Shown: positions 401-7,417 of the stretch, piece by piece | Layout: every line of letters starts with the position of its first letter | How positions within the stretch are numbered: the first letter of the stretch is position 1 | Assembly (NCBI GenBank): GCA_030652475.1 | Contig: JAUSAO010000105.1 | Location: 26,527 to 90,526, forward strand | Source: Gallionella sp. | Lineage (GTDB): Bacteria > Pseudomonadota > Gammaproteobacteria > Burkholderiales > Gallionellaceae | DNA length: 64,000 bases | Direction of reading: 5' to 3' | Program-made: the position numbers and the translations under genes | The notes under the pieces: generated by a model | What the model was told of the DNA's origin: nothing | Databases searched by the model: none | What the model saw: the letters and a program-made list of their open reading frames with translations, nothing else

Positions 401-1521
401 GCGAGAACACTACACGCGAGCCGCATCAGCCGGATACCGGGGCTGTGACAGCGCCGCGCCTGACGCATAAAACGTCAATGTCCGATCTGTTTGCGCGCAT
501 CAGCATCACTCAGCTGACACTCATCGTGCTGGTGGTTATTTTTATCTGGCAATGGCTGGAAGGGCAAAGCGCGATCAGTGACATGCGGCAGGAATTGGCG
601 CAGAAGATTGCCGAGATGGATGGCGGGAGCAAGGCGAATGCGATCCTGATTGCAAAAAATCAGGATGAAGTGCGTGCGATGGCGGTCAAAGTAGCCGCCC
701 TTGAGGCTTACCATGCAGAGGCCCAGAATCAGCGCGTTGCGCTGGAAACCTTGTATAACAGCCTGTCGATTAGTCGCGATGAAACCGCCATGGCAGATGT
801 CGAACAATTGTTGCTGATTGCGGGCCAGCAGCTGCAATTGTCGGGCAATGTGAAGGCGGCGCTGATTGCCATGGAGAACGCCGATGCCCGTTTGCAGCGT
901 ATGGAGCGGCTCGCTTTCAACGGCTTGCGCAACTCTATTGGTCAGGATATAGATAAGCTGCGCGCACTGCCCAAAGTGGATGTGGCCGGAATTAATCTGC
1001 AGATCAACAGGTTGTTGTCAGCCGTGGATGCATTGCCGTTGGTTGACCGGCATCGCCCTTCTGAAAACCGGGTTGCAAAAAAGGAGACGCCCATCGTGGA
1101 TGAGGCAGTCTGGCAAAAGCTGTTGCGCACCATCTGGCTGGAAGTCAAACAACTGGTACGGATAGAGAATACCGGCCTGGCGCAAATTTCGCTGTTGCCG
1201 CCCAAACAGGAGTTTTTCCTGCGTGAAAATCTGAAGATGCGCCTGATGCTGGCGCGTCTGGCGTTGTTGTCACGCGATCAGGACAGCTACAGACAAGAGC
1301 TGAAAACCGCGCAGCTTTGGACGAAGCAATTTTTCGACGTCAATTCGCCGGAAGGATCGCGCTTGCTGGATGAGCTCAACAAACTGGCCACCGCCAGTAT
1401 CAACATCGAATTGCCGGATATCAGCGCCAGCCTGCAAGCCGTGCGAAATTATCGCCTGAGCCATGAAAACGCGGCGGACATCGGAACGCAGCGCGCTATT
1501 CCGCAGAAGGCGGCGAGATGA
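397..1521 (+). CDS. hemX: HemX-like protein (uroporphyrinogen-III C-methyltransferase family)
   Basis: N-terminal TM then coiled/helical HemX-type sequence; position between hemD and hemY. Confidence 0.85.
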   Translation: MSENTTREPHQPDTGAVTAPRLTHKTSMSDLFARISITQLTLIVLVVIFIWQWLEGQSAISDMRQELAQKIAEMDGGSKANAILIAKNQDEVRAMAVKVAALEAYHAEAQNQRVALETLYNSLSISRDETAMADVEQLLLIAGQQLQLSGNVKAALIAMENADARLQRMERLAFNGLRNSIGQDIDKLRALPKVDVAGINLQINRLLSAVDALPLVDRHRPSENRVAKKETPIVDEAVWQKLLRTIWLEVKQLVRIENTGLAQISLLPPKQEFFLRENLKMRLMLARLALLSRDQDSYRQELKTAQLWTKQFFDVNSPEGSRLLDELNKLATASINIELPDISASLQAVRNYRLSHENAADIGTQRAIPQKAAR

Positions 1522-2237
1522 AGCACCTGGTTTCAATTCTGCTGCTGTTTGCGGCGGCAGTGGCGCTGGGCACGATCCTGCAAAACACTGCTTACGTGCT
1601 GCTGGTCTACCCGCCTTATCGCATTGAGTTATCGCTTAAACTCTTTGTTCTCCTGTTGCTGTCTGTCTTTGTGCTCGGATACTGGCTGATCCATTTGCTG
1701 GCGGCCACCACGCAATTGCCGGCCATCGTGCAGAAGTTGCGGCTTGATCGTGCGCAGAAAAAAGCACGCAAACTGCTCGATATCGCGTTGAGCGCTTTTT
1801 TTGAAGGTCGCTATATGGAAGCGGAAAAAATTGCAGCCAGGGCCATTAAACTGGGAGAAAGCTCCGCCTTGTATCCCATTATCGCGGCGCGTTCAGCGCA
1901 CGAACTCGAGGCGACGGACAGGCGGGATGCGTATTTGTCTATCGTCGGCAGCAAATCGCCGGGCGATACGACGATGCGTTTTATGGCAACGGCGAAGTTC
2001 AAGCTGGATCAGCATGATCAGCAGGGCGCGTTAAATGCCTTGCAGGAATTGCGCGATAGCGGGGCAAGGGTTAATGTCGGCGTGTTGGCTTTGGAGCTCA
2101 AAGCGCAGCAACAGTCGGGCAATTGGGACGAAGTGCTGCGTGTGCTGGAACAGATGGAAAAGCGCAAGGGTATTGATGCCGTGCAGGCCGAGCAGGTGCG
2201 TCAACAAGCTCTGCAGGGAAGAGATCGTCAACAATAA
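1518..2237 (+). CDS. hemY: HemY-like TPR membrane protein of heme biosynthesis locus, probably short form
   Basis: Two N-terminal TMs, HemY_N-like sequence; 4-nt overlap with hemX. Confidence 0.8.
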   Translation: MKHLVSILLLFAAAVALGTILQNTAYVLLVYPPYRIELSLKLFVLLLLSVFVLGYWLIHLLAATTQLPAIVQKLRLDRAQKKARKLLDIALSAFFEGRYMEAEKIAARAIKLGESSALYPIIAARSAHELEATDRRDAYLSIVGSKSPGDTTMRFMATAKFKLDQHDQQGALNALQELRDSGARVNVGVLALELKAQQQSGNWDEVLRVLEQMEKRKGIDAVQAEQVRQQALQGRDRQQ

Positions 2238-2285
2238 TCTCTAAACGGCTGACCACATCCAGCAAAATTTCCATCGCGCGCCCCT

Positions 2286-2645
2286 TCATTGCAGCGGAGC
2301 GATAATCCAGTCAGCCAAACGTTGACGCAACCGCATCAACATGTCGTCTTTGATGTTGCCAATGCTGCCAACCAACATCGCGCCATCCAGCACGGCCAGT
2401 CTTGATAAGCGCAATACGCTGGCAGCTTTCAATCCAGTGGCAGCAAAATCGGTATCATTCTGGGTAAGGACTTCATCGAGGCCAGTCTCGGCCTGTTGTA
2501 CTTGCGAAGAAACCATGCACACCAGCCAATCGTCGAAATGGTTGGACGCTGGTCGCAACAGCAGCACAGGACGGAGTTTGGTTCCCGACAAATCGGTGTA
2601 AGGAAAAGGCGTGAGGACGATCTGCCCAGCCCGCTTCATTGCCAA
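2286..2645 (-). CDS. PemK/MazF-family toxin
   Basis: MKRAGQIVLTPFPYTDLSGTKLRPVLLL motif typical of MazF/PemK; downstream of antitoxin-like ORF. Confidence 0.85.
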   Translation of the reverse strand: MAMKRAGQIVLTPFPYTDLSGTKLRPVLLLRPASNHFDDWLVCMVSSQVQQAETGLDEVLTQNDTDFAATGLKAASVLRLSRLAVLDGAMLVGSIGNIKDDMLMRLRQRLADWIIAPLQ

Positions 2646-2875
2646 CGTTCCTTGATGTCATCGCGCGTATAGCTCACAGCCTCATCTTCCATGCCGCGCA
2701 ATGCCTGACGCATGGCTAATTGGGCAAACTCGCCGTCCGTCCATTCTTCAGGTTCTTGTCGCTTGCTACTTACTATCCCTGATTTTGTGGCAAGAAACTC
2801 AACGAAGTCGAATACTTCTGCGCGCTTGTCTTGTGGCAGGTTTTGCAGTGTTTCGATCAGTTCCGCATATCCCAT
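2636..2875 (-). CDS. Antitoxin-like small protein (DUF2281-like)
   Basis: ELIETLQNLPQDKRAEVFDFVEFL; overlaps toxin ORF by 10 nt. Confidence 0.7.
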   Translation of the reverse strand: MGYAELIETLQNLPQDKRAEVFDFVEFLATKSGIVSSKRQEPEEWTDGEFAQLAMRQALRGMEDEAVSYTRDDIKERWQ

Positions 2876-3073
2876 TTATTCCTCCATTGGGGTTATATCA
2901 ACTCGATAACCGTGGTCTGTCCCCTGATTCCAGTCCCCTGATTCCAGAAATCGATTTCAGAAAAATATGTCATTTAATAAATTAAATTCAGTGAGTTACC
3001 CTGTGCATAACTTCGAATCTCCGGACAGTAGTGAGCCAAAATAATTTTCTTCATTTCAGTCCCCTTAATTGTT

Positions 3074-3298
3074 TTAGGGCGTTGTTTGCCAAGAAATATC
3101 AATTTTTCTATGGCTTGACACACAGTCTCGCAGATAAAGATTTATAAGGCTCTGATACGGTACACCCTTTTCGTCAGCCATTTGTTTGAAATAGCCAATA
3201 ACATCTTCGCTCAACCGCATCGTGACAGATTTTTTGAGCTTAGCCGCATAAGGATTTTTGCGGGATTTCATTTTTGACAGATCGTATTCAGTTTTCAT
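3074..3298 (-). CDS. brnA: BrnA-family antitoxin
   Basis: VTMRLSEDVIGYFKQMADEKGVPYQSLINLYLRDC; 4-nt overlap with BrnT-like gene. Confidence 0.85.
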   Translation of the reverse strand: MKTEYDLSKMKSRKNPYAAKLKKSVTMRLSEDVIGYFKQMADEKGVPYQSLINLYLRDCVSSHRKIDISWQTTP

Positions 3299-3582
3299 GG
3301 CTTAACCCCTTGATAATAGTTACTCTCGTTTTTCGTGGCTTTTCTTGCCGAGATGATCCGAACAATGTTGCCTTGGTCGCGTTCGCAATGGCAGACAATC
3401 AGGAGGCGAGCTTCATCACTGAAGCCAAGCATCAGAAATCTGTCTTCTGACACGGAATTATCTTCATCAAAGAATTGCACAGCGAACTCGTCGTAGAAGA
3501 CAGATTGAGCCTCCTCAAACGAAACGCCATGCTTCTTCTTGTTTGAGGCCGCTTTAGCTGTATCCCACTCGAATGCAATCAT
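3295..3582 (-). CDS. brnT: BrnT-family toxin
   Basis: FEWDTAKAASNKKKHGVSFEEAQSVFYDE ... RIISARKATKNE. Confidence 0.9.
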   Translation of the reverse strand: MIAFEWDTAKAASNKKKHGVSFEEAQSVFYDEFAVQFFDEDNSVSEDRFLMLGFSDEARLLIVCHCERDQGNIVRIISARKATKNESNYYQGVKP

Positions 3583-3588
3583 GAATAC

Positions 3589-3616
3589 ATTGTATGTACG
3601 CTGGATAAATTGTCAA
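3589..3616 (-). promoter_or_regulatory. Predicted sigma70 promoter of brnTA (TTGACA-N16-TACAAT on minus strand)
   Basis: tgtcaa 3611-3616 (-35) and attgta 3589-3594 (-10), just upstream of brnT start. Confidence 0.6.
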
Positions 3617-3620
3617 GAAG

Positions 3621-3680
3621 CCCTAACGAGCTAAGGGGCTGCGCGCTTTTGCGCAGTCCTTCTTGAACGCAAGGTTAGGC
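3621..3680 (-). other. Integron attC-like site (60 bp)
   Basis: Minus strand: GCCTAAC ... TTCAAG.. hairpin ..CTTAGC ... GTTAGGG; R boxes plus internal stem CTGCGC/GCGCAG. Confidence 0.65.
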
Positions 3681-3705
3681 CAGAACCATGCAACCCATGG
3701 TTTGT

Positions 3706-4608
3706 TCACGGTTGTACTCTCTCAACTGGTAAAGTAGTACATCGGAACGAGCCAGGTAGTTTTGTCACCTCCGAATAGTCAATCAGAATAGTCTCAACAC
3801 CTTTGGATTCTAGCAATGTAGCCAAGCGTTCGCTCCGTTCACGCATAACCACTTTTCGGGGTGAAAGGGCAAATGTGTTGATTTCAAGGTTTGCTGTTTC
3901 CTCATCTGTGGCCTCTATCAAGTCAAAATGATTTTCGAGCCATTTCAGGCTTTCTGGCTTGAAACTCTTGGTGTGAATAAACCCGATCCCTTTGGCGGGA
4001 ATATTAAACTTCGTGTCCAAGTGAATTATTCCTCTATGCGTAAACTCTATCGTAACTATTTCGCGGTCTATTCCTGATTCTTTCAGTTTTCTTCTCAAGC
4101 AATCAACACCCTCTTTGTTGGTTTCCTCACCCAGTCCGACGATGACATACTGTTCATCTACGATTACGTCGCCGCCCTCAATTGATCCCTTTTCAATGTG
4201 AGCAACTTTGGAAAAGCGAGGGAGTAGATTTTCTAGTCCTTCAAGCTCTCGTTTCCTGTAATAGCGCCTCGGATTCGCGCAGAAAAAGGTATCATCAATT
4301 GCGAACCCTATATCCCTTGTGTAATGTTGTGTAGCACAACCAGATACTTGATCCGCTAATAACACTTCAACTCCGTTAGCCTTCATGATTTCCATGAACG
4401 TTTGTTGCTGCCTGCGCACTTTTTCACAGTTAAAAAACGGATTGAATTTGTTATACCAAAGCTGATAAAGGAGGGCTGCGTCAATTCCTCCGTACCGTAG
4501 AACCGAACTGACAGAGACGGGATTAGCGAAACACATCACCACTGTTTTCAGCGTTGCTGTTTCAGATGGAAGATTGATTGAGATGAGGTCGGTTTTATTT
4601 TGATTCAT
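3706..4608 (-). CDS. Dimethylarginine dimethylaminohydrolase / amidinotransferase-family protein
   Basis: Catalytic-type motifs: SIEGGD, H..IIHLDTKF, C-terminal PGSFRCTTLPV. Confidence 0.85.
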   Translation of the reverse strand: MNQNKTDLISINLPSETATLKTVVMCFANPVSVSSVLRYGGIDAALLYQLWYNKFNPFFNCEKVRRQQQTFMEIMKANGVEVLLADQVSGCATQHYTRDIGFAIDDTFFCANPRRYYRKRELEGLENLLPRFSKVAHIEKGSIEGGDVIVDEQYVIVGLGEETNKEGVDCLRRKLKESGIDREIVTIEFTHRGIIHLDTKFNIPAKGIGFIHTKSFKPESLKWLENHFDLIEATDEETANLEINTFALSPRKVVMRERSERLATLLESKGVETILIDYSEVTKLPGSFRCTTLPVERVQP

Positions 4609-4665
4609 AACTCGTGGATAGCTTTTCGATTGCGTTCATGGATAAGGTTCCCTCGTCAACAAGTG

Positions 4666-4730
4666 GCCTAACGTAGAGCTAAGCGGGCGGCGCGGCTTTT
4701 TGCGCAGCTCCGCTTGAGCGCCGGTTAGGT
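4666..4730 (-). other. Integron attC-like site (65 bp)
   Basis: Minus strand: ACCTAAC ... GCTCAAGCGG ... CCGCTTAGC ... GTTAGGC; L'' carries the extra C (extrahelical base) relative to L'. Confidence 0.75.
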
Positions 4731-4789
4731 CTCTTCGCCATGAATGATACCCCTCGCCGAAACTTCGATTTGCGATAGAACATTTAAAT

Positions 4790-4814
4790 GGTGGGCAGAT
4801 AAAACCTGCCCACC
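4790..4814. terminator. Hairpin downstream of pgm (possible terminator/repeat)
   Basis: GGTGGGCAG ataaaac CTGCCCACC inverted repeat. Confidence 0.5.
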
Positions 4815-4849
4815 CTACGGGAATCTATTGATTCCGCCCCATTTTTACA

Positions 4850-6556
<1,707 letters not shown>

Positions 6557-6754
6557 TTACCATTAGTAGGGAAAATTCAGGCTAGGCGAACACCTGGCAA
6601 CATTATTTGATAGTCAGGGGGGTTGACCCGTTGCTTCGTCAGTTGTCTCTGGCATCAATCACATTTACGTCAGGATTGAACCGATGACTTTCCCCAAAGT
6701 CGCATTTTCCTGCAATAATTACGCAACCAATGATATTGAAAGTGAGCAGGCAAA

Positions 6755-7417
6755 ATGATGAGTCAAGACGATTTGAAACGTGCGGTGGCACTCGCTGCGA
6801 TTGAATATGTTCCGCTGGATTGCATCGTGGGTGTGGGAACGGGTTCAACCGCCAATTTCTTTATTGATGAATTAGCCAAGATCAAACACAAAATACGCGG
6901 TGCGGTGGCCAGCTCTGAAGCTTCGGCCATTCGTTTGCGCGGGCACGGTATTGAGGTGCTGTCACTGAACGAGGCGGGTGATTTGCCTGTGTACGTGGAT
7001 GGCGCGGATGAAATAACCCGTCACATGCACATGGTGAAGGGCGGCGGCGGGGCGCTGACGCGCGAAAAGATTGTCGCTGGTGCGAGCAAAAAATTTATTT
7101 GTCTGTGCGATGCCAGCAAGCTGGTCGGTGTGCTGGGCAAGTTCCCGTTGCCAATCGAAGTGATTCCTATGGCGCGCAGTTCTGTTGCGCGGCAGCTGGT
7201 TGCGCTGGGCGGGCAACCCAAGTTGCGCGAGGGCTTCACCACCGATAATGGTAACGTCATTCTCGATGTGCACGGCATGAGCATCATGAATCCGGTTGAG
7301 CTGGAATCGACGCTGGATCATATCGCCGGCGTGGTGACCAATGGTCTGTTTGCGCGCCGTGGAGCAGATGTGCTGCTGCTGGGCACGCCGGAAGGCGTGA
7401 AGACGATGACGGTCTGA
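6755..7417 (+). CDS. rpiA: Ribose-5-phosphate isomerase A
   Basis: [32 protein letters not shown] motifs. Confidence 0.95.

Follow-up and report, generated by a model that had tools for sequence, protein, structure and literature searches.

The 64-kb stretch of DNA analyzed here (the window) contains a block of genes at positions 2238–4849, between the stop codons of hemY and pgm. The hemY gene (1518–2237, plus strand) encodes a protein of approximately 239 amino acids and is on the strand opposite to all the others. On the minus strand, the order is pgm (4850–6517), an attC site (attC2), a DDAH-like coding sequence, a second attC site (attC1), brnT, brnA, and a DUF2281/PemK pair, pgm being next to the attC2 side of the block. 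The preliminary description of this DNA stated that the block interrupts hemY and pgm, but the block lies between both genes, and neither is interrupted.

The two attC sites were evaluated with R1, a structure model usable for attC of this bacterial group. R1 was trained on 19 aligned attC-like sites from related genomes, with all sites of this genome left out, and the covariation in its training structure is well above that of the shuffled and slid controls. The covariance model search of the 64-kb window gives exactly two matches, the pair already proposed, and both share the minus-strand orientation of the gene that they enclose. One is attC1 (3621–3680; R'' GCCTAAC, R' GTTAGGG) with a score of 66.0 bits (E 8.1e-16), and the other is attC2 (4666–4730; R'' ACCTAAC, R' GTTAGGC) with a score of 49.9 bits (E 2.4e-11), both far above background. 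The R1 alignments place inverse R''/R' core sites with G^TT in both sites, and the R1 structure, comprising an L''/L' helix and a hairpin whose extrahelical bases lie on one side, fits both of them. The extra base on the minus strand (CTCAAG versus CTTAG) is on the same side in both sites, and the minus-strand orientation agrees with that of the enclosed coding sequence, as had been claimed. In the Rfam search, RNase P is the only match, and no attC-type family is matched.

Chance palindromes or terminator hairpins should be considered as an alternative identity of the two sites, since the R boxes alone are uninformative: the pattern TAACN{35,65}GTTRRRY has six matches in the window and 6.0 in shuffles. 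In the fold check that had been proposed, the single-strand folding energies of the sites are better than those of the shuffles, but only moderately so. However, the E values above come from an independent model of the full structure, and in relatives the same sites bound cassettes adjoining intI, leaving a negligible probability for a chance origin. Both attC types are found in arrays of relatives that adjoin intI (attC2-like sites in G109 and G139), and the attC family of the window is abundant across the taxonomic family. We conclude that both sites are true attC.

In integrons, the systems by which bacteria capture genes, the integrase cleaves at the G^TT crossover point. The attC positions combined with this cut give a complete cassette of 1,045 bp at 3627–4671 (minus strand), from the G^TT of attC2 to that of attC1, in agreement with the integron-like DDAH/amidinotransferase cassette that had been proposed between the two sites. 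attC1 (3680–3621 on the minus strand) is located just downstream of the end of the DDAH-like coding sequence (3706) in the same orientation and is the attC of this cassette. attC2 forms the upstream boundary; it has no cassette gene of its own, and its upstream neighbor is pgm. The cassette content of the window is therefore one complete unit, a second whose end is broken, as described below, and attC2 minus its own gene. In a comparison with brnTA homologs of two related genomes, G104 and G138, the cassette boundaries coincide base for base.

The DDAH-like coding sequence (3706–4608, minus strand) encodes 300 amino acids with matches to PF02274 (E 5.7e-23) and PF19420 (E 1.8e-9). The motifs IEGGDV and HLDT and a C-terminal Cys align with solved arginine deiminases, and the protein is far below the cut-off of every NCBIfam equivalog. 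Judging from its sequence, the protein is a member of the arginine deiminase / DDAH superfamily, and its substrate is probably arginine or a related guanidino compound. For this gene, a dedicated promoter is not obvious. A DNA search of the family genomes with this gene gives no match outside this genome. A homolog with 88% identity (87% at the DNA level) is found in an MAG titled Gammaproteobacteria, and just 3' of it is a decayed attC-like site (L025, 5920–5978; 18.4 bits, E 0.008 in 37 kb). Close relatives are present in 4 of the 369 sampled genomes of the class, this genome counted. This distribution fits horizontal spread as a cassette, though it is not proof of it.

The next unit on the minus strand consists of brnT (3295–3582; 95 amino acids, PF04365, E 2.4e-29) and brnA (3074–3298; 74 amino acids, PF14384 and PF12441), the toxin and the antitoxin, respectively. 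As the preliminary description noted, the pair has a promoter-like site of its own, TTGACA-N16-TACAAT at 3616–3589 on the minus strand, which agrees with the consensus at 11 of 12 positions and is also conserved in the corresponding cassette of G104. The pair is probably transcribed from this promoter. The brnTA cassette begins at the R' box of attC1, and its homologs in G104 and G138 start likewise. In these two genomes, brnTA lies between attC sites and brnA stops inside the R'' box of the attC that belongs to it (CCCTAACCC...). Alignment of the window with these cassette ends reveals a stub of this attC at 3074–3080 (GCCCTAA on the minus strand, the R'' box with the brnA stop codon inside): the brnA end keeps CCCTAA, and the remainder of the site is lost or decayed. 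Sequences 80–93% identical to brnTA are found in many family genomes, and copies with approximately 90% identity are in attC arrays of relatives, several of which adjoin an intact intI. Arrays adjoining intI that contain brnTA are those of G014, G138, and G159, the copy in the G014 integron being 91% identical to that in the window. These comparisons support brnTA as the next cassette after the DDAH-like one.

The second toxin–antitoxin pair (2286–2875, minus strand) is inside the block, between brnTA and hemY. It consists of a DUF2281/VapB-like antitoxin (2636–2875; PF10047) and a PemK-like toxin (2286–2645; PF02452). Its relatives show 70–84% DNA identity, and no attC was found in the flanks examined. 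The pair was therefore rejected as a third cassette.

In the closely related genome G014, hemY and pgm are separated by 65 bp with a hairpin and no cassettes, and the flanking DNA is 90% identical to that of the window. This spacing without cassettes points to the block being an insertion, though the empty site is shown by this one genome only. Insertion rather than loss is likely, because cassettes are mobile and G014 has brnTA in its own integron. The preliminary description had raised the possibility that the same spacers occur between hemY and pgm in relatives lacking the genes; the 65-bp spacer of G014 is different and has no attC. The sequence of the empty site is too different from the window flanks for the junction to be placed. 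In G014 and G003, the two closest relatives, hemY stops at nearly the same point. The protein is of about the same length in both, similarly short frames are observed in G013 and G001, and hemY is about 390–460 amino acids long in most of the genus. Truncation of hemY by the insertion was rejected, since the closest relatives carry an equally short gene; the short hemY is a natural C-terminal shortening of one subclade.

The preliminary description was correct that the window lacks intI, and a TIGR02249 profile search of all 146 contigs of this draft assembly (estimated completeness 99.5%) found no intact intI either. The wider search that it had suggested, for intI and further attC sites, gives three separate intI 5' stubs, each cut within the first ~30–60 codons and none of full length, and extra attC sites on contigs C109, C142, and C143. 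One stub is at C33:1091–1348 (L209). Another, at C124:61619–61885 (L168, about 3119–3386), is at the usp-hemH locus and has an internal TGA followed by a deletion. The last, at C142:1890–2021 (L181), faces an attC array. Several short N-terminal intI matches are also found in G103, G022, and other genomes of the genus. Tyrosine recombinases on C25 and C138 were rejected as intI because they are below the TIGR02249 cut-off, the C25 fragments having just 36–51% identity to IntI. TIGR02249 matches above the cut-off are present in 83 of 158 family genomes, G014 and G003 included; the 14 control genomes have none. In G014, an intact intI and adjoining cassettes lie between usp and hemH. The syntenic locus is fully assembled on C124 in this genome, with intI cut short. 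The G014 integron also holds a second brnT-type pair, a homolog of which is on C109 of this genome.

The further R1 matches across the genome are at C109:11542–11604, C142:132–194 and 580–649, and C143:424–483 and 955–1039, together with two weak ones. On C142, the array toward which the intI stub points has at least two modeled attC cassettes, the classic integron layout. The arrays on C142 (L181, 1–1790) and C143 (L182, 1–1430) reach the contig ends and contain genes for a DUF1232 protein, BrnA, HicAB, and others. The open reading frames next to them look like rnf (C142) and nth (C143), which points to a single array split by the assembly. On C109, a cassette-bearing insertion (L117, about 5560–7292) is bracketed by direct copies, 31 bp long, from the 3' end of purU, a duplication not expected from IntI. 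The same purU 3'-end repeat surrounds different cassettes in G014 (L207 on C69, about 1205–3845), and a single copy without an insertion is found in G003 (L208 on C171). The purU 3' end looks like a gene-end integration hotspot rather than a product of IntI chemistry, and a non-IntI route is therefore possible in this genus.

Read along the minus strand, the block runs from attC2 through the DDAH-like gene and attC1 to brnTA and a cut-short attC. It has two attC sites and no intI nearby, as in a CALIN, and lacks the functional intI that, together with attI and a promoter, lies beside the array in a complete integron. Of the two descriptions offered previously, a CALIN-type remnant or the tail of an array, the former is borne out, and the block is very probably a two-attC CALIN left from an inactivated chromosomal integron system of this lineage. 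The presence of only a single complete cassette and the missing upstream gene of attC2 count against this reading. An integron integrase would once have been active in the lineage, cutting the folded attC of cassettes at G^TT. The cassettes may have arrived between hemY and pgm through IntI acting at a secondary site or through a later rearrangement, the weakest step of the scheme. Every detected intI copy would then have lost its catalytic part, which would have fixed the cassettes in place. IntI supplied in trans could still mobilize them, and brnTA may stabilize the block, a role proposed for TA cassettes in other integrons.

An intact intI could, however, be missing from the assembly, with an active integron persisting and the block being a satellite within its reach. 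The arrays on C142 and C143 stop at contig ends in an assembly of many contigs, and it is known that assemblies broken at attC arrays yield too many CALINs (PMC9024848). Contrarily, no full intI appears at the high estimated completeness, the assembly covers the C142 array at its intI end, where the gene is a stub, and the locus syntenic with the G014 integron is assembled throughout with intI cut short, all of which makes a persisting active integron improbable. How the cassettes reached the locus is more evenly balanced. The chance is slightly below even that the cassettes are real but that homologous recombination, an IS, or an island integrase brought the block, and not IntI at this site. 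The non-cassette TA DNA in the same insertion and the direct repeat flanking the purU cassette group favor such a process, whereas no direct repeat was found at the ends of the hemY-pgm block and no transposase gene was noticed in its list of open reading frames. Beyond the CALIN itself, we tentatively suggest, with rather more doubt than confidence, that every detectable intI copy is a 5' stub while the cassettes persist at scattered loci (hemY-pgm, the purU 3' end, and the ends of C142 and C143), some of them relocated by recombination that did not involve IntI. If so, the genome would be a natural record of integron cargo turning into ordinary chromosome.

The block is a clear instance of something already known, and not an extraordinary one. 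It differs from the closest known system in its minimal size, in a third attC reduced to a stub, and in the non-cassette TA pair within the same insertion. In an attG-type insertion, a single crossover would join a cassette to a GWT-type target in the chromosome. Cassettes are reportedly inserted into bacterial genomes at attG sites (Loot et al. 2024, Nat Microbiol 9:228-240, as cited in PMC11023631), and the block resembles such insertions in having cassettes at an ordinary chromosomal site. It differs in having attC2 on the upstream side, which one insertion alone would not produce, and the original junction cannot be read. In Xanthomonas, the integron platform is widespread, intI is lost or truncated in some lineages, and CALINs are found at other chromosomal loci (PMC12444791). 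The present case is similar in that the platform is common in the group, intI is inactivated, and a CALIN lies away from the main locus, but it involves three intI stubs in one genome, another bacterial group, and one CALIN at hemY-pgm. The brnTA unit is like known BrnT/BrnA type II TA cassettes in carrying a TA pair with its own promoter, the sole difference being that it has lost its attC. A search for integron papers under the presumed genus name returned none. Here cassettes outlive their integrase in a family in which integrons are common, and the intact G014 and the dead system of this genome offer a comparison for how integron cargo gets fixed in a chromosome. The cargo may also represent an arginine-modifying enzyme cassette common to several bacterial groups.

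Short repeats are also observed in the block. The stretches 2947–3041 and 4789–4822 recur elsewhere in related genomes and are possibly dispersed intergenic repeats inside the insertion; 2982–3035 recurs on C25 of this genome, and 4789–4822 is 97% identical to a stretch on C28 of G014. Another intergenic repeat of ~60–75 bp (L116, about 5357–5431) has many copies across relatives, this genome and G003 included.
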